Origin: Deltaproteobacteria bacterium
Lineage (GTDB): Bacteria > JAMCPX01
Reading direction: 5' to 3'
DNA: 37,052 nt
Assembly: GCA_023382265.1 (NCBI GenBank)
Contig: JAMCPX010000010.1
Span: 1-37,052 of the forward strand
The number at the start of each line of letters is the position of its first letter. Position 1 is the first letter of the stretch. The position numbers and the translations under genes were made by a program. This document shows, piece after piece, positions 2,707 through 15,660 of the stretch. The notes under the pieces were generated by a model. The model ran no database searches. It saw only the letters and a list, made by a program, of their open reading frames with translations, and was not told where the DNA came from.

Positions 2707-2866
2707 ATGAAGTTACAAAATGCTCAATGTCCTAAATCGGATACCGGCAGAAAGGTTGCAGCAAGGGCAATACACAGTGCAGGCAACAGGAAGAAGGGAT
2801 CCTTTGTAGCTATAAACTGTACTGCTATACCGGTATAACTGCTTGAGACAGGGTTGTCCGGTAAAA
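2707..2866 (+). pseudogene. relict of an NtrC-type sigma-54 activator (AAA+ core fragment)
   Basis: The frame starting at 2707 reads into a piece of the sigma-54-interaction AAA+ domain: DTGRKVAARAIHSAGNRKKG, then SFVAINCTAIP. This matches the conserved stretch after Walker A (GTGKE-LVARAIH...FVAINCAAIPENLLESELFG). The Walker A lysine region is degraded, and an in-frame TAA at 2836-2838 replaces the expected Asn of PENLLE. The same frame then continues LLETGLSG, still aligned with LLESELFG. Neither the receiver domain nor the DNA-binding end is present within this 440-base spacer. It is a fossil of a regulator that has almost entirely decayed. No ribosome-binding site precedes ATG 2707. The rest of the spacer from 2534 to 2975 holds nothing else I recognise. 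Confidence 0.7.
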
Positions 2867-2975: not shown

Positions 2976-3392
2976 ATGAAGAAAATAATTTTATTTGTTT
3001 CCTTATTTGTTTTTACGTTTGTGCAGGGAAGTTACGCTCAAAATATACATACGTTGCTTGAATATACCAAGCCGATATCTTCAAACAGTAAAAAATCTTT
3101 TACGCTTGATATTCGAGGGAAAGGATATGCAAGGGTTAAGATCGAATGTAAAGTGGATCAACAAAATGTCGTGATGTATTATAAGACCAGTACTATGAAT
3201 TCTTATAAGTCGATATCAACTACCGGGCTGCCGGCTTTATATAACTACTATTATCATAAGACACTGTTTGTTTTGTCTGCCTCTGTACAGGTCAAAGGGG
3301 CTGATTACATACGTTTTATCGTAGAAAACAAAAGCGATAAAGAGACATCGATCCAATTAACAGTGTATGGCTTAACCGGAAATACGCCATAA
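2976..3392 (+). CDS. small secreted protein of unknown function
   Basis: A 138-residue protein with a clear Sec signal peptide (basic MKK, hydrophobic stretch to residue 18, SYA-Q cleavage after about residue 21). The mature part of about 117 residues alternates short beta-strand-like segments, is rich in Lys, Ser and Tyr, and has a single Cys, so no disulfide is expected. I do not recognise the family. A strong GAGGAGGT (2953-2960) lies 15 bases before the ATG, a longer spacing than usual. Upstream is regulator debris and downstream a hairpin-bearing spacer, so it is probably transcribed alone. It may be a small beta-sandwich exported to the periplasm. Confidence 0.6.
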   Translation: MKKIILFVSLFVFTFVQGSYAQNIHTLLEYTKPISSNSKKSFTLDIRGKGYARVKIECKVDQQNVVMYYKTSTMNSYKSISTTGLPALYNYYYHKTLFVLSASVQVKGADYIRFIVENKSDKETSIQLTVYGLTGNTP

Positions 3393-3481
3393 GGTAATGC
3401 ATTATAAGAGAGAGTTAAATCTTGCAGAGGATTGTTATCGCGAAGAATAAATTATGGTGTACTCTTTATTGGGATGGAGCA

Positions 3482-3512
3482 AGTTGTCGTTCCACGGAGG
3501 GGAACGACAACT
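3482..3512. repeat. REP-like perfect hairpin
   Basis: AGTTGTCGTTCC (3482-3493) and GGAACGACAACT (3501-3512) are perfect complements around a 7-base loop. There is no T-tract, so it is not a standard intrinsic terminator. The arms resemble the TTGTCATTCC-type palindromes dispersed in many bacterial genomes (compare 19134-19233). Confidence 0.55.
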
Positions 3513-3545
3513 ATACCATATCTCTTCATTCATCCCCGCCGCTAG

Positions 3546-3755
3546 CTATGGACTGAAGCCTTTTCCCTTCTTCTTTTGTTCGGTAATGTTGTTCATATCA
3601 GGCTTCGTTTGCTTGATGCTTATGCAAGAGACGTTGAAAAAGTAAGAGTCTGGTATGGAATTGACCAAAAATCCATACTGCATCTTGACAAATACAGTAA
3701 GAGAACTATCATTCATTCAATGAGAAGAAAACAAATAGGCGTTAACAGATCATGA
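3546..3755 (+). pseudogene. unexplained open frame, possible gene remnant overlapping the next start
   Basis: The frame is open for 69 codons after a TAG at 3543-3545. From about 3610 it reads like protein (DAYARDVEKVRVWYGIDQKS, then ILHLDKYSKRTIIHS), rich in charged residues and unlike random AT-rich DNA. Its TGA (3753-3755) overlaps the next ATG (3752-3754) in the classic ATGA coupling. No good ATG or ribosome-binding site starts it, so it may be the 3' remnant of a gene once cotranscribed with the lipoprotein. I do not recognise the family. Confidence 0.25.
3685..3712 (+). promoter_or_regulatory. sigma-70 promoter for the lipoprotein gene
   Basis: Consensus TTGACA (3685-3690), 16-base spacer, TATCAT (3707-3712). 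The predicted start near 3719 is about 33 bases before the ATG at 3752. Confidence 0.6.
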
Positions 3756-4327
3756 AAAAAATGAGCTCATTGAGTATATTTAGTTTGTTTGTATGTCTTG
3801 TGTTCTTTAGTGTTTCGGGTTGCCAGAAACCAGCTTCTCCTGTACATTCCTCTCCACGACATCCTTCTCCAGCACCTCCATCACAAGAACATCCACAGGG
3901 TAGTTTAGAGCAATGGCAAAAAGCCGAGGCAATGGCAGGTAAAACACGCCAGAGCCTTATTGCTGAATACAGCCAGGCTGTTGATGATTATGTAAAACAA
4001 ACATTGAGGACAACAGGAACCTTGCCTGTTAAAGATGTTCTGGGCAGAGATGTGGAAATACCTGGCAAATTAGAGCTTGTGCGTATTATGAAAGATAAGA
4101 TTACCCCTTATGAGGGGAATACCTATTTTGCCTGTTCAGACTTCCTCGCTAAATCTGGGAATACCCAAACAAAATATGATTTAGATTTTTTTATGACCCA
4201 CGTTCATGGTGCATGGAAACTGAACAAGATACTCCTGCATAAGATGGATGGGAAACCTCAGATGATGTATGTAGATAATAAACCTGTCCCCATAACAAAG
4301 AAACAATTCATTGCGGATGATAAATAG
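3752..4327 (+). CDS. lipoprotein of unknown function with Pro-rich linker
   Basis: 191 residues. The N-terminus is a lipoprotein signal with lipobox VSGC (Cys24), followed by a flexible Pro/Ser/His-rich linker (about 25-50) that would hold the folded part away from the membrane. The folded part (about 52-191) starts with a helix (QWQKAEAMAGKTRQSLIAEY) and ends with strands around YDLDFFMTHVHGAWKLNKIL, a pattern reminiscent of NTF2-like lipoproteins; that is only an impression. Function unknown. It has its own promoter, weak ribosome-binding sequence, and precedes the rhodanese-TlpA gene by about 100 bases. Both may act in the envelope, but nothing ties them biochemically. Confidence 0.6.
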   Translation: MKKMSSLSIFSLFVCLVFFSVSGCQKPASPVHSSPRHPSPAPPSQEHPQGSLEQWQKAEAMAGKTRQSLIAEYSQAVDDYVKQTLRTTGTLPVKDVLGRDVEIPGKLELVRIMKDKITPYEGNTYFACSDFLAKSGNTQTKYDLDFFMTHVHGAWKLNKILLHKMDGKPQMMYVDNKPVPITKKQFIADDK

Positions 4328-4428
4328 GGATTAAACAGAGCATTCAGGATTATCAAAGTAACTTCTTTTAAATAAACATCAAATATTGTGAGGAGTTACG
4401 CATATATGCCTATTAAGGAGAAGTAGAA

Positions 4429-5460
4429 ATGACAGCGAAAGAAAAAAACGCCGGCAGGAGCGGGCTTATCATAAAAGCATCAATTATTGTCATACTTTTA
4501 TTGACGGGTGTACTTGGATATATAGGCATCAGTAGAACAACACCGCAACAGGAGTCGAAATCCGGTATAACAGGACAATTGTCCGATAACGCACAGTTGA
4601 TTCAGCCAGCAGACCTCGTAAAATTACTCCAGTTGAAAAAAGAAGAACAGCCGCTAATCCTCCATGTTGGCTTCCTTAGTCTGTACAATCAATCGCATAT
4701 TCCCGGCGCCGATTATGTTGGTGCTGCTTCAAGTCCGGAAGGATTGCAGAAGCTGCGGGAGCTGTTAAAGGATCTGTCACGGAATAAATTCATTGTTCTG
4801 TATTGCGGATGCTGTCCGTGGAATAACTGTCCCAACATTAGGCCTGCGTACAAGGAATTAATGGCCATGGGTTTTACAAATGTGAAGATGCTTTATCTTC
4901 CTAATGGTTTTGTCATTGACTGGGTTCAAAAGGGCTATCCTGTTGTTAGCGGAACTGGCAATAACAACGCATCCGGGGAAGGGTCAAATTTACCAAATAA
5001 TCAGGGGCCGGTAGAGAATGAAAATGCACCTGATTTTAAGCTTCCAACAGTTGAAAACAAAATCGTCAACTTATCCTCTTATAGAGGAAAGGTTGTATTA
5101 CTTAATTTCTGGGCAACATGGTGTCCACCATGCAAGATGGAACTGCCATCAATGGAAAGGCTTTCAGAGAAACTAAAAGGACAGCCATTTGTAATACTCG
5201 GTGTTAATGTTGATGAAAGTAATCCTGATCATGTTAAAACGTTTATACAGAAGATGGGTATAACATTTCCCATTCTTATTGATAATGGCTCGGTCTCTAA
5301 CGAATACAGAGTAAATGGTATACCAATAACCTTTATTATAAGAAAAGACGGAACAATATACGACATTGTAAATGGTGCAAGGTCATGGGATAAGAACAGC
5401 TATGTAAATGTGTTCAAAAAGTTGATAGCTGAGCCGTATATAAAGCATAAACATACTTGA
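4429..5460 (+). CDS. membrane-anchored rhodanese-TlpA/ResA-like thioredoxin fusion
   Basis: 343 residues: an N-terminal membrane anchor (about 13-34), a rhodanese-like domain (about 53-174), a Gly/Asn-rich linker (175-195) and a TlpA/ResA-type thioredoxin domain (about 198-340). The thioredoxin active site is WCPPC (Cys232/Cys235), as in periplasmic thiol-disulfide reductases of cytochrome c maturation. The rhodanese loop is unusual: YCGCCPWNNCPN gives four cysteines (126, 128, 129, 134) where a classical rhodanese has one in a CR-type loop. The set could bind metal or form disulfides. Joining sulfur-transfer and thiol-redox folds in one periplasmic chain suggests handling of persulfide or cysteine-bound metal; that is inference. 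The start has a good AAGGAGA site. It precedes the M16 peptidase by 33 bases. Confidence 0.85.
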   Translation: MTAKEKNAGRSGLIIKASIIVILLLTGVLGYIGISRTTPQQESKSGITGQLSDNAQLIQPADLVKLLQLKKEEQPLILHVGFLSLYNQSHIPGADYVGAASSPEGLQKLRELLKDLSRNKFIVLYCGCCPWNNCPNIRPAYKELMAMGFTNVKMLYLPNGFVIDWVQKGYPVVSGTGNNNASGEGSNLPNNQGPVENENAPDFKLPTVENKIVNLSSYRGKVVLLNFWATWCPPCKMELPSMERLSEKLKGQPFVILGVNVDESNPDHVKTFIQKMGITFPILIDNGSVSNEYRVNGIPITFIIRKDGTIYDIVNGARSWDKNSYVNVFKKLIAEPYIKHKHT

Positions 5461-5493
5461 ATCAAACAGCTTCTATGTTTAGAACATGTTAGC

Positions 5494-8235
5494 ATGGGTG
5501 TAGTAGATATGGTAATAAACAAAAACATAACACGGCGTTATCATTTTTTGGTATTGATTCTGCTTTTAATGATAGTTTTGCTGTCATTGCCTCTGAGTAC
5601 CAAGGCAGCAGGGAAGGCATCAAAGACCGCCGGGAACACGCAAAAAGTCTTTCGTGCAACGTTGAAGAATGGGCTCCGGGTTATAATCGTTCGTAATACT
5701 CTTGCACCTGTTGTAACTACAGAGATAAACTATCTTGTTGGTTCTGACGAAGCGCCAAAAGGATTTCCTGGAACAGCTCACGCTCTTGAACACATGATGT
5801 TCCGGGGAAGCCGTGGTTTATCGGCGTCGCAGCTTGCTGACATTATGGCTGCAATGGGCGGCGATTTTGATGCAGACACACAGCAGATGGTAACACAGTA
5901 TTTCTTCACGATACCTTCCGGGGACTTGAATGTAGCTCTTCATATTGAAGCTACCAGGATGAAAGGAATTCTTGGCACGGACAGGTTATGGGACAAAGAG
6001 CGGGGAGCTATAGAACAAGAAGTCGCGCAAGACCTTTCAAATCCAGAATATGTTCTCTTTACGAACCTCTTGGCAACAATGTTCAAAGGAACACCGTATG
6101 CTCATGATGCACTCGGGACCCGACCATCTTTCGACCACACGGCGGCAGCAATGTTAGATAGCTTCCACAAAACATGGTATGTACCAAACAATGCGATTCT
6201 TGTTATTGTTGGAGATGTGAAACCACGTATAGCCCTTGCAGAAGTTAAAAGGTTGTTCGGGAGCATCCTTCCTGGAAAATTACCGCAACGTCCAAAGTTT
6301 AATTTCAGGCCTGTTAAACCGATCGTACTGCATTTGACAACTGATCTGCCGTATGGTCTTGCAGTAATTGCTTATAGAATGCCCGGTACGAACAGTCCCA
6401 ATTATGCAGCCTCTCAAATTCTATCTGATGTTCTAAGCAGTCAACGAGGAAGGCTCTATGCCCTTGTTCCAGAGGGGAAGGCACTCTTTGCTGCATTCGA
6501 GTTTATGGCACTGCCAAAATCAGGGATCGGTTTTGCTCTTGCTGCATTTCCGAAGGGATACAATCCGCAAAAACTTATCAATAAGATAAAAAAAATATTA
6601 TCTCAGGAGGTAAAGAAGGGCGTTTTATCGGACATAGTTGAAGCATCAAAAAGGGTCGAGATTTCCGATGCCGAGTTCCAGAAGAATTCTATTCCTGGAT
6701 TGGCGATGGCATGGTCTAATGCAGTGGCCATTGAAGGGAGGAACTCACCAGAAGATGATCTGAGAGCAATAGAAAAAGTGACTGTTGATGATGTAAATCG
6801 AGTAGCAGTGAAGTACCTTGATCCGAAGCAAGCAATCGTAGCAGTACTCACTCCACAGGTATCAGGCAAGCCGGTTTCTTCGCACGGATTTGGAGGTGCT
6901 GAATCTTTTACTCCTCAAAAGACTAAAAATGTGAAACTGCCGGCATGGGCAGAGGCAGCTATTGGAAAAATCACCGTGCCCCACTCCACAGTGAAACCTT
7001 CGGTGATAATTCTGCCGAACGGTATCAAACTCATTGTACAACCGGAATCCATAAGCAATACAGTTACTATTATTGGCGGCATTAAGAACAATCCACTGCT
7101 TCAGACTCCTCAAGGTCAGGATGGTGTGAGCAGCATTATCGATCAGCTCTTTGAATATGGTACAACCTCTCTGAGCAGGGTTGCATTCCAGAAAGCATTA
7201 GATGATATCGGCGCCCGTGAATCCGCAGGTTCAAGCTTTTTTATTCGTGTTCTCAGCAGCAAATTTGATAGAGCCGTGCAGCTTCTTGCAGACAATGAAC
7301 TTCATCCACTGCTTCCAGCAAAGGCATTCAAGATTGTACAGCGCAGAACTGCGGCTGCAGTAGCAGGAGAGCTTGAAAGTCCGGATTACCTGACAAGCCG
7401 TGCCCTTCATGTTGCACTTTTTCCAAAAGGTGATCCTGTCCTCAGACAACCTACACCGAAAACGATCGACTCGCTCACTTTACAGGATGTCAAAGATTAC
7501 TACAACAAGGTTTTTCGACCCGATATGACAACGATCGTGGTCATAGGAGATGTCACACTTCAAGAAGCACGCGAGGTTGTATCAAAATATTTTGGGAACT
7601 GGAAGGCAAGTGGTCCTAAACCGAAAACTGACCTTCCGTCAGCTCCTTTGAACAAGCCTTCTATTGTTGCAATACCCGATGAAAGCCGCGTGCAGGATAA
7701 GGTCTATCTTACCGAGACGCTCGGATTAACGCGATCTAATCCCGATTACTATCCTTTACAATTAGGTAACCACGTCCTTGGCGGTGCATTCTATGCTACA
7801 AGGTTCTACCGCGATCTCCGCGAGAATAGAGGCTTGGTTTACTACGTTAGCTCAACTTTCGACATTTCCAAAACGCGGGGAATATACCAAGTCAGCTACG
7901 GCTGTGATCCCCGGAATGTATCAAAAGCGCGGACAATTATCGTGCACGATCTCAAACAGATGCAGGAGTCTGATATAACGCCAGAAGAGCTGAGGCAGGC
8001 AAAGGCCCAGCTTATGCGTGACATACCACTGTCAGAGTCAAGCGAAACCAGCATAGCCAGCGGATTGCTGAGCAGGGCTATAAGAGGACTGCACTTAAAT
8101 GAGCCAATACTCTCAGCGCATATATATTTGAAGCTGAGTGCAAAACAAGTTCAGGATGCTTACAGAAAATGGATACGGCCGAATGACCTCGTCCAGGTTG
8201 TAGAAGGTCCGGAACCATCCCTGGAAACGAAATAG
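5494..8235 (+). CDS. M16-family zinc metallopeptidase, two-module (pitrilysin/processing-peptidase type)
   Basis: 913 residues with an N-terminal signal or anchor (about 16-38, STKAAG cleavage-like) and two M16 repeats. The first (about 50-480) carries the inverted zinc motif HALEH (His96, Glu99, His100) and the third ligand in AIEQEV (Glu177), so it should be active. The second (about 500-910; VIILPNGIKLIVQPES onwards) lacks HxxEH and would complete the clamshell. Such proteins degrade or process peptides in the periplasm. Start choice is uncertain: ATG 5494 and ATG 5509 are both in frame and neither has a strong ribosome-binding site. It lies 33 bases after the rhodanese-TlpA gene and may be cotranscribed with it. 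The second module still has the R/Y pair (TRFYRDLRENRGLVYYV) that positions substrate in this family. Confidence 0.88.
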   Translation: MGVVDMVINKNITRRYHFLVLILLLMIVLLSLPLSTKAAGKASKTAGNTQKVFRATLKNGLRVIIVRNTLAPVVTTEINYLVGSDEAPKGFPGTAHALEHMMFRGSRGLSASQLADIMAAMGGDFDADTQQMVTQYFFTIPSGDLNVALHIEATRMKGILGTDRLWDKERGAIEQEVAQDLSNPEYVLFTNLLATMFKGTPYAHDALGTRPSFDHTAAAMLDSFHKTWYVPNNAILVIVGDVKPRIALAEVKRLFGSILPGKLPQRPKFNFRPVKPIVLHLTTDLPYGLAVIAYRMPGTNSPNYAASQILSDVLSSQRGRLYALVPEGKALFAAFEFMALPKSGIGFALAAFPKGYNPQKLINKIKKILSQEVKKGVLSDIVEASKRVEISDAEFQKNSIPGLAMAWSNAVAIEGRNSPEDDLRAIEKVTVDDVNRVAVKYLDPKQAIVAVLTPQVSGKPVSSHGFGGAESFTPQKTKNVKLPAWAEAAIGKITVPHSTVKPSVIILPNGIKLIVQPESISNTVTIIGGIKNNPLLQTPQGQDGVSSIIDQLFEYGTTSLSRVAFQKALDDIGARESAGSSFFIRVLSSKFDRAVQLLADNELHPLLPAKAFKIVQRRTAAAVAGELESPDYLTSRALHVALFPKGDPVLRQPTPKTIDSLTLQDVKDYYNKVFRPDMTTIVVIGDVTLQEAREVVSKYFGNWKASGPKPKTDLPSAPLNKPSIVAIPDESRVQDKVYLTETLGLTRSNPDYYPLQLGNHVLGGAFYATRFYRDLRENRGLVYYVSSTFDISKTRGIYQVSYGCDPRNVSKARTIIVHDLKQMQESDITPEELRQAKAQLMRDIPLSESSETSIASGLLSRAIRGLHLNEPILSAHIYLKLSAKQVQDAYRKWIRPNDLVQVVEGPEPSLETK

Positions 8236-8436
8236 GGAAAAAGCCTGTCAGATGACCATCGCTTTTCGATTTTGGTGCCTCTCCCATCTGTGATCATGCC
8301 GGTGTAGGTAGAATAGCACAACCATGAAAGATCAAAACTACATTGTTATAGGGGTCACGGGATCCGTATGCTCTCCGACTGATGAGTTTTATATTATTGT
8401 TCATCCCTTACACATCACCATGTACAAAGATGAGGT

Positions 8437-8451
8437 CTGTTTTTAAAACAG
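8437..8451. promoter_or_regulatory. short palindrome upstream of the DUF302 gene
   Basis: CTGTTTTTAAAACAG (8437-8451) is a perfect 7-bp palindrome around one central base, about 50 bases before the DUF302 ATG. The arms are too close to make a stable RNA hairpin, so a protein-binding site is the more natural reading. Nothing else recognisable was seen between 8236 and 8503. Confidence 0.3.
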
Positions 8452-8503
8452 GCTTGATATTTATCCATACAGTTATTATTCTTTTACGGAGGGAGGGATT
8501 ATT

Positions 8504-8890
8504 ATGGAAGCCTTCGATTATACGGTCCGGACGACGAAGACCTTTGACGGGGCAGTGAGCACTGTTGAAGCAAAGACAAAGGAAAAAGGGTTTGCTGTAC
8601 TGCATATCCACGATATCAAGGCAATCTTTGCAAGCAAGGGCATCGAGCATGAGCCTCTTAAGATCATTGAGATCTGCAATACAAAATACGCAAGCCAGGT
8701 ACTTGCAAAGGACATCAAGATCGCTCTTATGCTCCCCTGCCGCATCAGTGTCTATGCGGAGGGAAAAGAGACTCTCATCAGTGCATTACGCCCAAGAGTA
8801 ATCGCAGACTTCTATCCGCAGGCGGATATAGGTGCAATGGCGCAGGAGATTGATAAAATCATCCTTAGTATCGTGGACGAATCGAAATAG
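8504..8890 (+). CDS. DUF302-family protein
   Basis: 128 residues matching the DUF302 fold. FDYTVRTTKTFDGAVSTVEA and KGFAVLHIHDIKAIFASKGI lead into PLKIIEICNTKYASQVLAKD and the family's hallmark ALMLPCRISVYAEGKETLIS with its conserved Pro-Cys. DUF302 proteins are small cytosolic proteins, often encoded near redox or metal-resistance genes; their function is unknown. A strong GGAGGGAGGG site lies 9 bases before the ATG. The gene ends about 95 bases before the sigma-54 promoter of the Cus-like operon, so it is a separate unit. Its position suggests, but does not show, a role in metal stress. Confidence 0.8.
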   Translation: MEAFDYTVRTTKTFDGAVSTVEAKTKEKGFAVLHIHDIKAIFASKGIEHEPLKIIEICNTKYASQVLAKDIKIALMLPCRISVYAEGKETLISALRPRVIADFYPQADIGAMAQEIDKIILSIVDESK

Positions 8891-8905
8891 CGGGTTTCTG
8901 AACAC

Positions 8906-8927
8906 TATTCTTCATTCCTGAAGAATA
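8906..8927. promoter_or_regulatory. 22-bp palindrome: candidate enhancer site for the sigma-54 promoter (or weak terminator of the DUF302 gene)
   Basis: TATTCTTC (8906-8913) and GAAGAATA (8920-8927) are perfect inverted repeats with a 6-base gap. The centre is about 97 bases upstream of the predicted sigma-54 start point (near 9013), the usual distance for an NtrC-type activator site. As RNA it would also be a hairpin just after the DUF302 stop, but it lacks a uniform T-tract. Confidence 0.45.
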
Positions 8928-8985
8928 ATGTTTGTTTGACTCTGATCAGGGCAAGATAACCTGCTCATTTTCATGACATATTACT

Positions 8986-9002
8986 CTGGCACGATAATTG
9001 CC
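8986..9002 (+). promoter_or_regulatory. sigma-54 (RpoN) promoter of the Cus-like efflux operon
   Basis: CTGGCACGATAATTGCC matches the RpoN consensus (TGGCACG-N4-TTGC) at every key position. The invariant GG (8988-8989) and GC (9000-9001) are exactly 10 bases apart, as required. The start point would be near 9013, 45 bases before the cusC-like ATG. A sigma-54 promoter needs an NtrC-type AAA+ activator, none of which is intact in this window; metal-responsive examples (ZraR type) are known. Confidence 0.8.
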
Positions 9003-9057
9003 TTTAATCTTTGGAGAACAAAGTTGATTAAAGGCTCCAAGGGGATATGATAAAAGT

Positions 9058-10329
9058 ATGAAAAAATTGTTATGGATTGTATATGCTGTTTTGATCCTTG
9101 TGCCATCTGTTACCATGGCTCAGGAGGGTACTACTCAGAACAGGTTTACGCTGAACCAATACGTTGTCGAAGTGCTGAAAGCCAACCCATCTATCAAAAG
9201 TATGCAGGCAAAGGTTGCCGATTTTGAAGCACGGTATCACTACACCGGCGTTATCCCTGATCCATCATTGATGTTCAAGATAAACAACATGGACACAAGT
9301 TATTCTGTCGGCGAGGATCCGATGAGTTTTTTGGCCATAGAGCTTGATCAGGTAATACCTTTTCCCATGAAGCTGCATCTTGAATCCGAGATCGCATACA
9401 AAAAGTTCCAGATAAGCAGACAATTGCTCAGGCAGAAAGAGCTTGAAATCCAGTCACAGGCTGTATCTGCGTTCAGCGATTATTATTACGATGTTGAATC
9501 ATTATCCTTGCTTGAGCAATATGTAAAGGTGATTGATACGGTTATAGGAACAGCAAGACAGAGGTACGAAACAGGTATTGCATCCCAGCAGGACATGCTG
9601 CGCGCGATGCTTGAACGTTCAAGGCTTGATGAGAGGATCGAGCTTATAGACCTGGAGCTGAACCGTTCAACCGCGCGGATGAACGGTTTGCTTGGTAAAA
9701 CGCCTGACACACAACTGCCTAAGCCTGAAACACTTGAGCCTTTTGCCATAGGCTATGGCAGGGAAGCACTTTACAACTCTGCCGGAAATAATTCACCAGA
9801 GATATCCATTGCAAAAATAGACGTGGAACAAGGCAAGCTGGAGTTATCTAAAAGTAAATGGTCTTACGCCCCTGATCTCGATATCGGTGGAGGTATCATG
9901 ACAAGAGGTTCTTACCCTCCCGGTTGGACAGCACAGATAGGAATAAGCCTGCCTTTATACTTCTGGGCAAAGCAGAGATACATGGTCAAGGGTGCAGGTG
10001 CAGAGCTGATCGCAGCACAACAGGGTGAGAACAACACAGAAAAATCGACACTTGCAGAGATAGATGCTGCATATCAAGAGGCACAGACAACCTACTCATT
10101 GATTAATCTGTACAGCAACAAGATCGTACCTGAAGCAGCACTTACATTCAGCTCAGCGATCAGCAGCTACACAACCGGCAGGGTAGACTTCCTTACGACC
10201 ATGGATGCACTGCTCATGCTCATCGATTACAAACAGTTGTTGTATAAAAGGACAGCGGAATATTACAAGGCGCTGGCACGGCTCAGCGTGCTGAGCGGTG
10301 TAGACCTGATAAAGGCCGGTAAGGAATAG
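9058..10329 (+). CDS. cusC: TolC-family outer-membrane efflux protein (CusC-like)
   Basis: 423 residues with a Sec signal (cleavage TMA-Q, after about residue 21) and two outer-membrane efflux protein repeats rich in long alpha-helical coiled-coil segments (about 85-215 and 285-420). It is the outer-membrane channel of a tripartite RND pump. There is no lipobox, unlike E. coli CusC, so it is probably not acylated; the symbol rests on operon position before cusB- and cusA-like genes. AAGGGG lies about 13 bases before the ATG. It is the first gene behind the sigma-54 promoter. The 157-base gap to the adaptor gene contains a large imperfect inverted repeat (10374-10450). Confidence 0.85.
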   Translation: MKKLLWIVYAVLILVPSVTMAQEGTTQNRFTLNQYVVEVLKANPSIKSMQAKVADFEARYHYTGVIPDPSLMFKINNMDTSYSVGEDPMSFLAIELDQVIPFPMKLHLESEIAYKKFQISRQLLRQKELEIQSQAVSAFSDYYYDVESLSLLEQYVKVIDTVIGTARQRYETGIASQQDMLRAMLERSRLDERIELIDLELNRSTARMNGLLGKTPDTQLPKPETLEPFAIGYGREALYNSAGNNSPEISIAKIDVEQGKLELSKSKWSYAPDLDIGGGIMTRGSYPPGWTAQIGISLPLYFWAKQRYMVKGAGAELIAAQQGENNTEKSTLAEIDAAYQEAQTTYSLINLYSNKIVPEAALTFSSAISSYTTGRVDFLTTMDALLMLIDYKQLLYKRTAEYYKALARLSVLSGVDLIKAGKE

Positions 10330-10450: not shown

Positions 10451-10492
10451 CAAAACGCTCCCCGTCATGAGAGGTAGTTACAGGAGATGAAC

Positions 10493-11842
10493 ATGAAGAG
10501 ATATTTTATCATACTCGGCATTACATTCGTGGCTTTGACAGCATACGGATGCTCGAAGCATAAAACACAGGGCAATGCTGCAAACGGACAGATCCAGCAG
10601 AAAAAAGAAAAATGCAAGACCATGTACAAATCCACCATGATGCCCAAGGAAGTATCAAGTACCCCGGGCAAGGATTCCATGGGCATGGAGATGGTACCGT
10701 TCCAGGTCTGCGAACAGACAGAAAAGGAAAAGTCCCTTGCACCGGGGACCGTTCAAATATCATCGAGACTCCAGCAGATGTACGGTGTAACGCTCGGTGC
10801 CGTAAAAAACAGGAAACTTACATTTTCCGTACGTAACGATGCAATCATCAGATATGATGAAACACGGCTGAAGGACATCAACATAAGGTTTTCCGGATAT
10901 ATTCAAAAACTGTATGCCGATTATAAAGGCATGATGGTGTACAAAGGCCAGCCCCTGTTTACGATCTATTCCCCGGAGCTTTTATCGGCGGAACAGGAAT
11001 ACCTTCTCGTTGTCAATAATCCCTATTCGGCAAACAACAGGGAACTTGTCCATGCTGCCGAGCAGAAACTGAGACTATGGAACATCACCGGCAGGCAGAT
11101 ACAGGAGATTAAGAAGGCGGGCAGGGCTTATGACACACTTTCTTTCTACGCACCCTTCACCGGTTATATCATCGAAAAACACGTTGTTCAGGGACAGCAT
11201 GTCGATGCCGGGCAGACATTATTCAGGATCGCGGACTTGAGCGATGTATGGGTAATGGTTGATATATACGAAAGTCAGATTCCGTTTGTCCGCACAGGGC
11301 AGCAGGTGAGCCTGCAGCTCCTGGCATTCCCCGGAAAAGAGATAAAAGGCAGGATCGATTATATATATCCCTATCTGGATAACGGGACCAGGACCGTAAA
11401 AGCGCGGGTAGTCATATCCAATCCAGGGTATCACATTAAACCGGACATGTACGGCTCTGCAGTTATCCGGGACGAAATCGGAGAGAAGCTTGCAGTGCCT
11501 GCCGATGCTGTCATGAACACGGGGACAAGGCAGGTGGTGTTTGTGGACAGGGGTGATGGCTACTTTGAGCCGCGTACCGTAAAGCTCGGCGAGCACGTGG
11601 ACAGATATTATGTCGTGATTTCAGGGCTCGTGTCGGGGGACAGGGTCGTGACAAACCCGGTGTTCCTGATCGATGCGGAATCCAATCTTAACGAGGCAAG
11701 CGGTGCAATCGGTTCAATGCCGGGTATGGAAATGAACAGCGGTAAAAAGGTTCAAGGTCCGCAGAAGTCAGTGGAAAGGCCATCAGAACAGAAGACGGCT
11801 CCAGTAAATCAGGACAATTCCATGCCCGGGATGAAGATGTGA
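10493..11842 (+). CDS. cusB: RND periplasmic adaptor lipoprotein with heavy-metal-binding domain (CusB-like)
   Basis: About 449 residues from the preferred ATG at 10493. An in-frame ATG at 10487 directly abuts CAGGAG (10481-10486), so the second ATG has the right spacing. The lipobox is TAYGC (Cys20). Next comes a heavy-metal-binding segment (MYKSTMMPKEVSSTPGKDSM, then GMEMVP, about 37-65) like that fused to CusB/CzcB adaptors, then the membrane-fusion beta-barrel, hairpin and lipoyl parts (about 85-385). The C-terminus carries two Met clusters, MPGMEM and MPGMKM, the kind that bind Cu(I)/Ag(I). It bridges the CusA-like pump and the outer-membrane channel, and delivers metal. The gene is followed after 51 bases by the pump gene. 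Confidence 0.88.
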   Translation: MKRYFIILGITFVALTAYGCSKHKTQGNAANGQIQQKKEKCKTMYKSTMMPKEVSSTPGKDSMGMEMVPFQVCEQTEKEKSLAPGTVQISSRLQQMYGVTLGAVKNRKLTFSVRNDAIIRYDETRLKDINIRFSGYIQKLYADYKGMMVYKGQPLFTIYSPELLSAEQEYLLVVNNPYSANNRELVHAAEQKLRLWNITGRQIQEIKKAGRAYDTLSFYAPFTGYIIEKHVVQGQHVDAGQTLFRIADLSDVWVMVDIYESQIPFVRTGQQVSLQLLAFPGKEIKGRIDYIYPYLDNGTRTVKARVVISNPGYHIKPDMYGSAVIRDEIGEKLAVPADAVMNTGTRQVVFVDRGDGYFEPRTVKLGEHVDRYYVVISGLVSGDRVVTNPVFLIDAESNLNEASGAIGSMPGMEMNSGKKVQGPQKSVERPSEQKTAPVNQDNSMPGMKM

Positions 11843-11893: not shown

Positions 11894-14800
11894 ATGATTA
11901 ACCGTATCATCGAGTACTGCGCAAAAAATAAATTTATCGTGTTCCTCGGTACGGCCTTTCTGATCGGATGGGGAATATGGGTGATCAACAAAACGCCGCT
12001 GGAGGCAATCCCGGACCTTACGCCGGTGCAGGTGATAATTTATACAAAATGGGAAGGCCAGAGCCCGAACATCATAGAGGATCAGGTAACCTATCCCATT
12101 GTAACCGCCTTGATCTCCGCACCGAACGTTCAGGTTGTACGGGGCCTGTCCACGTTCGGATATTCGTACGTGTATGTTCTGTTCAAAGACGGGACCAACA
12201 TGTACTGGGCGCGGAGCAGGGTGCTGGAATATCTCCAGCAGATCAACGGTAAACTCCCGCCGGGTGTCAATCCTACGCTCGGGCCCGATGCAACAGGTAT
12301 CGGCTGGGGACTTGAGTATGTGCTGCTGGATAAGGGACACAGGTATAACCTTGCCGACCTGAGGACGTTCCAGGACTGGTATCTGAGATACTGGCTTGAA
12401 TCCGTTCACGGTGTATCCGAGGTGGCAGGAATCGGTGGATACCAAAAGGAGTTCAGGGTAAACGTCTATCCGGCCAGGCTTCAGGCATACCATATTCCTT
12501 TGAGCAGGGTCATAGATGCTGTCAGACATTCAAACAACGATGTCGGCGGCGCATCCATAGAGATCAACGGCACGGAGTTTGTCATCAGGGGCAACGGCTA
12601 CATTGAGTCATTGAAAGACCTCGGCAATACCGTTGTTTATGCCTCGCCTCACGGGACCCCGGTCCTTTTGAAGGACATCGCGGATATAAAATATGATGCG
12701 GTCATGAGACGGGGGATTGCGGATTATAACGGCACAGGCGATGTCGTGGGAGGTATCGTTATTGTCCGCTACGGCGCGGATATGTATAAGATCCTGAATG
12801 ACGTAAAGGCGAAGATCAAACAGATTACACCATCGCTTCCCAAAGGCGTCGAACTAAAGATCGTTTACGATCAATCCAAATTGATCAAGAGGTCCGTTGC
12901 AACGCTGCGGGAAAAGCTCATTGAGGAAAGTATTATCGTAAGTATTGTTTCCATCATATTCCTCTACAGCATTACCAGTGCACTTGTCGCTATTGTAATC
13001 TTACCTCTTGCTATTTTGATGGCCCTAATCGGCATGTACTATGTAGGGGTATCATCCAATATTATGTCTCTCGGCGGCATAGCGATCGCGATCGGCGCTA
13101 TGGTGGACGCCTCGATCGTGATGATAGAGAATGCAAATAAATTCCTGGAGCAGGAACATAATCTCACCAACAAAAGGCGTGAAGAGATTATCATACAGGC
13201 TGCAAAACTCGTCGGCAGGCCCCTGTTCTTTTCCCTGCTCGTTATAGCGGTCGCATTCCTGCCGATCTTTGCTCTCACAGGGCCAGAGGGAAAGCTCTTC
13301 AGGCCGCTTGCGTATACAAAAACCTTCTCCATGTTGTTTGCAGCATTCCTCTCCATTACCCTGGGACCGACGTTAATGACCCTCTTCATACGCGGGAAGA
13401 TCACGCCGGAAGAAAAAAATCCGATCAACCGCCTTATGATCCGGGTTTATCACCCGGTCGCCCTGTTTGCGCTCAAGCACAAAAGGCTTATCCTTATTTC
13501 AGCGGTCCTGATTATCTTAACCATCATATTCCCTTTCACACGGCTCGGCAGCGAATTTATGCCGCCGCTCAATGAAGGAACGATCCTTTACATGCCGAGC
13601 ACGATACCCGGCATATCCATTACCCAGTCAAGACAGATGTTGCAGGTTACGGACAGGATCATAAAATCTTTTCCCGAGGTAACATCCGTTTTTGGAAAGG
13701 CGGGCAAGGCAGATACCTCGACAGACCCGGCACCGTTGGAGATGATAGAAACCATCATCAACCTTAAACCGCAGTCACAGTGGCCCAGTGGAGTGACATG
13801 GAAAGGATTAATCAATCAAATGAATGCAGCGCTCAATGTGCCCGGAGTAACAAACGCATGGACAATGCCGATAAAAGGCAGGACAGACATGCTGACCACA
13901 GGCATACGTACCCCTGTTGGTATTAAGATCTATGGTCCAAGTCTTGGCGAAATGGAAAATATCGGGAAGATGCTGGAAAGCACCCTCGGAAAGATACCCG
14001 GGACAAGGAGTGTTTTTGCGGAAAGGGCAGTGGGCGGGCATTACATAGATTTTGACATAAACCGTGAAGCCATCGCACGGTACGGGCTGACCATCAGCAA
14101 TGTGGAGGATGTTATAGAAACAGCCATAGGCGGTATGTCCATCGGCAAGGTTATTGACGGACGCGAACGTTTTGCGATTGCACTGCGGTATCCCCGGGAA
14201 CTCCGCGATAATACCGATAACCTCAAGATGACACTTGTTCCAACTCCGTCAGGCGCCCAGATACCCATTGGAGAGCTTGCCAGTATTCATAGAGTCAACG
14301 GACCTCCGATGATAAGGGACGAAAACGGCATGCTGTCCGATTGGGTGTATGTGGACTTAAACACAAGCAATATCGGCGGATACGTGGAACGTGCAAAGAA
14401 AGCCGTAAACGATGAGATTATAAAAAAAGGCATGCTCCCCGCGGGTTATACGCTTGAGTGGACAGGCGAATATAAATATATGGAACACGCGAAAAAGACT
14501 CTTATGATCGTGATCCCGCTTACCCTGTTTATTGTGTTTTTGCTCCTGTATTTCAATAAACATTCGGTAACAGAGGCACTCATTGTCATGCTTGCGATCC
14601 CGTTCTCGCTGACCGGCGCATTCTGGGGACTTTACATCGTGCATTACGAGCTCAGCGTCGCTGTATGGGTCGGTATCATTGCACTTGCCGGGGTTGATGC
14701 CGAAACAGGGGTCGTCATGCTCGTGTACCTTGATGAGGCTTATCACAGGTGGATCGATGAAGGAAAGATGCACACCGAAAACGATCTCAAGGAATCCATC

Positions 14801-15022
14801 ATGTACGGTGCTGTCCAGAGAATACGCCCGAAGATGATGACCGTCGTTGCCATTATTATGGGGCTTGCGCCAATCATGTGGAGTCACGGGAGCGGTGCGG
14901 ATGTCATGAAGCGTATTGCCATGCCTATGATAGGAGGCGTATTCACCTCTGCGATCATGGAGCTTGTCGTATACCCGGTAATCTATCTTTACTGGAAGAG
15001 AAGGACGCTGCCCCGGGAATGA
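11894..15022 (+). CDS. cusA: heavy-metal efflux RND pump (CusA/SilA-like)
   Basis: 1042 residues, the normal length of the HME-RND family, with 12 membrane spans and two large periplasmic loops. The proton-relay residues of CusA are all recognisable: Asp in AIGAMVDASIVMIEN (about residue 405), Glu in GVDAETGVVML and Lys in RIRPKMMTVVAI. Of the three methionines that bind Cu(I)/Ag(I) in CusA, one is kept in TDMLTTGI, one is shifted by a residue in AIGGMSIG, and the third position appears replaced in SGVTW. Copper/silver export is favoured over the divalent CzcA type because of this and the Met-rich partners, but the site is not a perfect Cus match. CAGGA lies 5-9 bases before the ATG. It exports periplasmic or cytosolic metal through the CusC-like channel using proton influx. 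Confidence 0.9.
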   Translation: MINRIIEYCAKNKFIVFLGTAFLIGWGIWVINKTPLEAIPDLTPVQVIIYTKWEGQSPNIIEDQVTYPIVTALISAPNVQVVRGLSTFGYSYVYVLFKDGTNMYWARSRVLEYLQQINGKLPPGVNPTLGPDATGIGWGLEYVLLDKGHRYNLADLRTFQDWYLRYWLESVHGVSEVAGIGGYQKEFRVNVYPARLQAYHIPLSRVIDAVRHSNNDVGGASIEINGTEFVIRGNGYIESLKDLGNTVVYASPHGTPVLLKDIADIKYDAVMRRGIADYNGTGDVVGGIVIVRYGADMYKILNDVKAKIKQITPSLPKGVELKIVYDQSKLIKRSVATLREKLIEESIIVSIVSIIFLYSITSALVAIVILPLAILMALIGMYYVGVSSNIMSLGGIAIAIGAMVDASIVMIENANKFLEQEHNLTNKRREEIIIQAAKLVGRPLFFSLLVIAVAFLPIFALTGPEGKLFRPLAYTKTFSMLFAAFLSITLGPTLMTLFIRGKITPEEKNPINRLMIRVYHPVALFALKHKRLILISAVLIILTIIFPFTRLGSEFMPPLNEGTILYMPSTIPGISITQSRQMLQVTDRIIKSFPEVTSVFGKAGKADTSTDPAPLEMIETIINLKPQSQWPSGVTWKGLINQMNAALNVPGVTNAWTMPIKGRTDMLTTGIRTPVGIKIYGPSLGEMENIGKMLESTLGKIPGTRSVFAERAVGGHYIDFDINREAIARYGLTISNVEDVIETAIGGMSIGKVIDGRERFAIALRYPRELRDNTDNLKMTLVPTPSGAQIPIGELASIHRVNGPPMIRDENGMLSDWVYVDLNTSNIGGYVERAKKAVNDEIIKKGMLPAGYTLEWTGEYKYMEHAKKTLMIVIPLTLFIVFLLLYFNKHSVTEALIVMLAIPFSLTGAFWGLYIVHYELSVAVWVGIIALAGVDAETGVVMLVYLDEAYHRWIDEGKMHTENDLKESIMYGAVQRIRPKMMTVVAIIMGLAPIMWSHGSGADVMKRIAMPMIGGVFTSAIMELVVYPVIYLYWKRRTLPRE

Positions 15023-15255: not shown

Positions 15256-15660
15256 ATGACCAAAACAAAGATGCTTGTAAGTATACTTATTGTGATGTTT
15301 GTAGTAACGGCAATAACAGTCGTGACACAGATATCAAAGGCTTGCCAATGTGGTGCTGACTCAAAGGTTATTAGTATGAACATGGGTGATTCGAATAACA
15401 TGAACGGAACAGGTATGAAGGGTATGAAAACCGGTAATGATGGAAAATTACAGCGGGGCTATGCTATATGCCCGGTATGTCACATGAAGGTTAAGATAAC
15501 AAAAAATACGCCATTCGTTGTCTACGGTGACAGAAAATACTACTTTCATACGGATGAAGAAAAACAGGAATTCCTTAAGGATCCTCAAAAATACATAAAC
15601 AGCATGAAGTCCAGGCCTGTCAATAAACCGCCGTTGTCTAATGAAAATAAGGGCATGTAA
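15256..15660 (+). CDS. exported YHS-like protein with Met-rich linker
   Basis: 134 residues: an N-terminal hydrophobic segment (about 8-25) acting as signal or anchor, CQC just after it (Cys30, Cys32), a Met-rich linker (about 41-58: MNMGDSNNMNGTGMKGMK), then a YHS-like domain (about 70-114) with ICPVCHMKV (Cys72, Cys75). The second cysteine pair of ordinary YHS domains is missing: FCxxxC has become FHTDEE, leaving His98. Metal binding through CxxCHM, His98 and the methionines is a reasonable inference, making this a likely periplasmic copper carrier for the pump. AAAAAGGAG lies just before the ATG, 12 bases after the small YHS gene. It is the last gene of the operon, before a strong hairpin. 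Confidence 0.8.
   Translation: MTKTKMLVSILIVMFVVTAITVVTQISKACQCGADSKVISMNMGDSNNMNGTGMKGMKTGNDGKLQRGYAICPVCHMKVKITKNTPFVVYGDRKYYFHTDEEKQEFLKDPQKYINSMKSRPVNKPPLSNENKGM

Follow-up and report, generated by a model that had tools for sequence, protein, structure and literature searches.

A candidate sigma-54 promoter module upstream of a Cus-type RND operon, with recurrent copies before copper-type genes in one bacterial family

Operons for copper export are a textbook case of control by sigma-70 regulators of the CusR, CueR, and CsoR kinds. In E. coli, CueR controls copA and cueO, and CusR, an OmpR-type regulator of a sigma-70 promoter, controls cus. Sigma-54 is rarely linked to copper. How, then, is a Cus-type operon controlled in a Deltaproteobacteria bacterium (assembly GCA_023382265.1) for which a first-pass annotation proposed sigma-54? 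The operon lies on contig JAMCPX010000010.1; the whole stretch analyzed, 37,052 nucleotides, is called the window. The proposal is supported by observations read from sequence, among them a promoter module that is conserved, a pump of the CusA kind, and the presence of rpoN in the genome. We consider it highly probable that 8901-9002 contains a sigma-54-dependent promoter of cusCBA-yhs that would be activated in trans, within a small copper regulon. The features are collected in Table 1.

Table 1. Position and basis of the features discussed, in window coordinates
Feature	Position	Strand	Basis
Decayed sigma-54 activator AAA+ fragment	2737-2865	+	internal stop (TAA); just before the 138-aa gene 2976-3392
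Palindromic enhancer (upstream activating sequence), putative	8901-8932	.	exact core 8906-8927; conserved in relatives; recurs with -24/-12
Conserved spacer block	8950-8975	.	recurs between enhancer and promoter; function inferred
IHF-like match, 2 mismatches	8957-8969	-	inside spacer block; within shuffle range
-24/-12 sigma-54 promoter element	8986-9002	+	exact match; predicted start near 9013
cusC-like outer-membrane efflux protein	9058-10329	+	PF02321
cusB-like periplasmic adaptor, Met-rich tail	10487-11842	+	PF16576; best NCBIfam matches CzcB/CusB types, below cut-offs
cusA-like RND pump	11894-15022	+	TIGR00914 above cut-off
YHS-domain protein, Met-rich stretch	15256-15660	+	PF04945 just below cut-off, 30.1 vs 30.3 bits

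Promoter elements and the operon behind them

The candidate -24/-12 element is CTGGCACGATAATTGC, which occupies 8986-9001 and has the form GG-N10-GC. The GG is at 8988-8989 and the GC at 9000-9001; that is, ten bases separate them, and the ideal spacing claimed in the first-pass annotation holds. This is the single match to YTGGCACGNNNNTTGC with zero mismatches in the whole window. Allowing up to 2 mismatches gives 2 matches to YTGGCACGNNNNTTGC versus 3.66 in shuffles, and allowing up to 3 mismatches gives 40 matches to TGGCACGNNNNTTGCW versus 43. Since these loose-pattern matches do not exceed the shuffle counts, only the exactness of 8986-9001 stands out. In the whole genome (2.63 Mb), TGGCACGNNNNTTGCW with at most 1 mismatch is found at 18 sites, versus 9 for the reversed control, and at the control rate the chance of a correctly oriented -24/-12 in a given 100 bp is about 1.7e-4. 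When each is taken alone, the promoter match is stronger than the palindrome.

The palindrome, TATTCTTC-ATTCCT-GAAGAATA, is exact, as had been claimed for a TATTCTTC-N6-GAAGAATA palindrome about 97 bases upstream of the start; by eye, its arms extend to 13 bases with one mismatch. The center is about 96 bp upstream of the predicted start, and a gap of 59 bp separates the palindrome from the -24/-12. A conserved sequence thus sits near -96, within the range of about 80-200 bp from the start in which sigma-54 enhancers are looked for. Considered in isolation, the palindrome is close to what chance gives in the window. Perfect inverted repeats (arm 8, loop 3-12, with the 8906-8927 palindrome entering twice) number 17, versus a shuffle mean of 9.2 and a range of 3-21 in 12 shuffles. 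Likewise, a genome-wide regulon drawn from the window's own palindrome was rejected, as up to 3 mismatches gave 42 sites per strand versus 48 in the reversed control. The weight of the palindrome comes from its conservation in relatives and its recurrence, not from its own statistics.

Between the two elements, a block resembling GGTATAACCTGTTAATTTT recurs across the modules. All nine long modules scored (G008 excluded) have their best IHF-like match at the complement of this block, with strand and offset unchanged, and at no single promoter is the match significant, 0.07-0.57 of shuffles scoring equally well. The genome has three HU/IHF-family genes. A weak terminator-like stem at 8949-8966 (1 found vs 0.1 expected) overlaps the block.

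A copper/silver pump is the natural reading of the RND operon. The window CusA aligns to E. coli CusA with 1064 bits, versus 473 bits for the CzcA-like ZneA. As in the pump of E. coli cusCFBA, the three CusA methionines, which we take to be positions 573, 623, and 672, are kept here, within LYMPST, APLEM, and TDML. A YHS-domain protein gene also lies 3′ of cusA in a relative, G003.

The module in related genomes

Of 117 genomes searched for cusC, 66 had matches. Besides the genome itself, only three carry close orthologues (75%, 73%, and 84% identical, the 84% over 230 residues), and all three belong to the same family. The palindrome and the -24/-12 are both kept upstream of cusC in each of them, 61 bp apart versus 59 in the window, and the flanks around both elements have diverged. 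In G001 and G003 the gene 5′ of the cus promoter is an orthologue of window 2976-3392, not the DUF302 gene; in G004, only 138 bases precede cusC on its contig. Relative to G001 and G003, the window has about 5.5 kb (3393-8890) between this 138-aa gene and the cus promoter, containing a lipoprotein-like ORF, a rhodanese-thioredoxin fusion, an M16 peptidase, and DUF302.

The phylum sample consists of 9 genomes of a single family. In these, the core TATTCTY-N8-RAGAATA with at most 1 mismatch is found at 41 sites, versus 22 for the reversed control. Each of the seven zero-mismatch cores is followed by a -24/-12, 59-61 bp away in six cases and 37 bp away in one. Six of the seven lie outside the window, and for these the -24/-12 position was not preset: it had the highest score of the 260 positions, lying at offset 60 in five cases and at 36 in the other. 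Among the 34 one-mismatch cores, 4 have a -24/-12 behind them at the usual spacing; no module was found at the other 30, two of which were scored individually and the remainder covered by a relaxed pattern search. In total, 11 modules are found in 6 of the 9 genomes, including all four that are at least 90% complete. G005-G007 are only 80-84% complete, and modules or activator groups missing there are weak evidence. The gap is 59-61 bp in 10 of the 11, the exception being the 37-bp module, which has no spacer block.

Nine modules were aligned, leaving out the 37-bp module and a near-identical copy in G008. The -24/-12 carries 1.59 bits of mean information, versus 0.95 for the 42 bases preceding it and 0.58 for what follows; as the alignment anchors, TGGC and TGC are invariant by construction.

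A relaxed form of the module has 10 sites in 6 of the 9 family genomes and 8 scattered sites in 5 of the 108 others, versus 1 site in all 117 genomes for the reversed control. The relaxed match is 94-96 long at 9 of the 10 family sites and at none of the 8 others (Fisher p 4e-4, the family sites sharing descent). In the genome_contigs collection, which may exclude the genome studied here, the strict module is found on 5 contigs: three of the family, with 5 sites in all, and two others, whose 2 sites fall within coding frames. Module sites are related by descent, so none of these counts are independent.

The genes behind the modules are cusC, genes for Met/His-rich proteins and PCYCGC proteins, and a CPH-type P-type ATPase gene. 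The first-pass annotation had advised looking for the palindrome elsewhere in the genome, and the core does recur on contig C65, followed at an equal distance by a -24/-12 of its own. C65 carries two modules. One precedes genes for a PCYCGC protein and a Met/His-rich, secreted-looking protein, and the other a 66-codon frame and a HAMP protein gene. The second module of G001 precedes a Met/His-rich protein gene, and G002 and G008 have one module each, before genes for a Met/His-rich protein and a CxxCH-bearing protein. In G004, one module lies before the gene of a CxxCH-bearing protein with an outer-membrane barrel, with a PCYCGC-like protein further on, and another directly precedes a P-type ATPase with a CPH motif, of which no close orthologue was found in the genome studied here (best 39%). 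The same three-part module stands upstream of these other copper-type genes, which suggests that the phylum has a small regulon for copper (or copper/silver).

Several neighbors of the modules deserve mention. Proteins of about 497 aa with one CxxCH are encoded behind a copper module at L101 3925-5421 (-), L102 2-1483 (-), and L103 1354-2847 (-); the first has no Pfam match. The HAMP proteins of L100 4052-4738 (-) and L083 9038-9700 (+), of 228 and 220 aa, lie in copper clusters of two genera. They have two apparent membrane segments and a kinase-like stretch and lack a catalytic domain; possibly they are signalling accessories or decayed kinases. Adjoining the copper cluster on C65, L100 8089-9038 (-) has two ORFs like an IS630-type transposase.

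Competing readings and known systems

The mechanism we favor for this layout is as follows. An NtrC-type activator, encoded elsewhere in the genome, would bind the palindrome, the spacer probably being bent by an IHF/HU-family protein. Through the resulting loop, the activator would then use ATP to open the sigma-54 RNA polymerase held at the -24/-12. Copper, or copper/silver, would be the signal for the regulon.

Some features of the window copy could be read as signs of wear. The enhancer of the relatives is fuller, with two AATATT dyads about 20 bp apart, e.g., CTACAGAATATTCTCC-N6-GAAGAATATTCTGTAG in G003, and the window palindrome departs from it in both outer halves. The 59 bp of the window is also the shortest of the regular module gaps, and a broken activator fragment is found in the window. 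The module could thus be genuine in the relatives and decaying at cus here, the local activator lost and the window copy responding weakly or not at all. This seems to us improbable, as the palindrome core and the -24/-12 are exact, the TTGC of the window is nearer the general consensus than the CTGC carried by 7 of the 10 other copies, and the two modules on C65 persist.

Sigma-54 control also has to be weighed against the usual control of Cus operons, by sigma-70 and CusR. Here the palindrome would be the operator of a sigma-70 regulator, CusR-like or other, with a start perhaps in the spacer block, where a TATAA-like sequence is found, and the -24/-12 would be incidental. A scan found one sigma-70-like site, at 9024-9051, but the shuffles give 1.1 and the site is downstream of the predicted start. 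Unlike E. coli cus, the region upstream of cusC has no match to a CusR box, searched as a pattern with at most 3 mismatches; the window has 3 matches versus 3.28 by chance, one of which, with 2 mismatches, falls on the start of cusC (9058-9073). Moreover, the -24/-12 is the top-scoring site downstream of independent palindrome copies. We give this reading little credence.

That the palindrome is a terminator or RNA hairpin of the DUF302 gene ending at 8890, unrelated to the promoter, can hardly be right: it starts 11-16 bases past the DUF302 stop, its RNA folds at -12.8 kcal/mol (-19.5 and -20.1 in two relatives), and the stem at 8949-8966 is separate from it, but G001 and G003 keep the palindrome-promoter distance behind a different upstream gene, the palindrome recurs before other genes 59-61 bp from a -24/-12, the terminator scan did not score the palindrome itself, and 8400-9200 has no Rfam match at E <=1.

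If the region is a sigma-54 promoter, how novel is it? Sigma-54 control of copper genes is already established for the CorSR system of Myxococcus xanthus (PMC3707914). In the accessible part of that source, an NtrC-type regulator with receiver, sigma-54 activator, and Fis-type HTH domains activates the curA copper operon, from predicted sigma-54 promoters, and its targets include a copper P-type ATPase and a His-rich protein. Copper-type genes behind predicted sigma-54 promoters are found here too, judging by sequence, and one candidate kinase, on contig C7, resembles CorS in having a HAMP domain and an apparent periplasmic segment (PMC3707914). The systems differ in organization. The CorSR kinase and regulator are encoded within the operon, whereas no regulator is linked to the modules here; four promoters lie along one cluster there, versus an RND pump and unlinked operons here; one CorSR target is also under the ECF factor CorE; and, unlike in CorSR, one palindromic enhancer is common to the modules, at a near-fixed distance (PMC3707914). 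Relative to CorSR, then, the new elements would be the RND operon as target, the unlinked activator, the one shared enhancer, the near-fixed architecture, and the phylum, seen as one family.

The three-part layout has a close parallel in the orp promoters of Desulfovibrio vulgaris, where palindromic activator sites, a sigma-54 promoter, and IHF sites between them have been tested (PMC3897727). As far as the accessible text goes, the genes and the palindrome are different, and the activator gene is known. In D. alaskensis under copper, RND genes go down and a PAS-type sigma-54 regulator goes up, according to the accessible part of PMC8836040; the accessible part of PMC4641369 does not mention copper. 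In the open-licence literature, with most subscription papers outside that scope, we recognized no report of sigma-54 control of a Cus-type RND operon.

If true, this would be the second sigma-54 copper case, Myxococcus CorSR being the first; its target would be an RND pump and its host an uncultured phylum, and it would tie copper defence to a promoter needing ATP-driven activation. The recurring layout could serve both to search for the regulon and, as a reporter, to find the sensor.

Candidate activators and sensors

The first-pass annotation named the absence of rpoN as grounds for abandoning its proposal; the genome has an intact rpoN with the RpoN box ARRTVAKYRE. The NtrC-type genes that it asked for are also present. 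Eleven strong sigma-54 activator matches correspond to about ten NtrC/NifA-type genes, as two matches look like overlapping contig-end pieces of one, and by eye nine have an N-terminal receiver domain. In keeping with the claim that the activator is encoded elsewhere, such genes lie outside the window and none is intact inside it; none is tied to the promoter. No intact activator or kinase was found among the 30 of 45 window ORFs scanned, which the other 15 overlap, and none is seen beside a module in the stretches read around modules, where several contigs end nearby. In G003, one activator is on the cus contig, about 15 kb from the module.

Six activator groups, named by contig, have an orthologue in each of the three further genomes of at least 90% completeness: C34, C28, C17, C7, C33, and C26/C55. 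Three of them we infer from context to be poor candidates for the cus activator, and they were set aside: C34, of which the best model is NtrX, below cut-off; C28, which adjoins pilus genes; and C26/C55, which is NifA-like and, by eye, beside glnA/amt-like genes. The C17 regulator is without a linked kinase. The C7 and C33 kinase-regulator pairs, which have no evident target adjoining, lead the list, with neither preferred. A comparison of the activator HTH motifs did not separate the candidates, and 8 palindrome-like sites (at most 2 mismatches) in the activator loci were examined, none being accepted as an autoregulatory module.

ZraSR of the enterobacteria is mentioned in PMC12316311. It is zinc-linked and has other targets. 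The likeness to it is the combination of a metal-linked kinase with a sigma-54 activator; the C7 and C33 pairs score with the ZraS/ZraR models, all below the curated cut-offs, and by the same cut-off no candidate here qualifies as ZraR. The C7 kinase has its HAMP domain and a segment read as periplasmic. The C33 kinase has no Pfam sensor domain; conserved His, Met/Leu, and Cys residues lie in its apparent first membrane segments, in the motif FHY-x-YG-[ML]-S-[HG] ... H-x-R-L-C. Among seven alignable genomes, the second histidine of this motif is present in all five that have modules and is a glycine in both that do not, in a small sample of related genomes in which the two without modules are 80-82% complete.

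The decayed fragment in the window is possibly a relic of a local regulator. Orthologues of the gene next to it, 2976-3392, directly precede cusC in G001 and G003. By similarity, the fragment falls closest to the C33 group, the source of its six best matches, over 43-56 residues only and by few bits, and the C33 copy of the same genome ranks lower. We put forward, as a tentative and rather doubtful extension, that the copper defence of the phylum may be one sigma-54 regulon with the unlinked C33 pair as sensor, signalling to an NtrC-type activator. The motif in the first membrane segments of the kinase might then bind Cu(I) in the membrane, and the decayed fragment near cus would be what remains of a C33-like copy once present there. 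On contig C49, a partial and divergent sigma-54-activator-like frame (L015 1501-1707) matches only positions 2-71 of a 168-position model.
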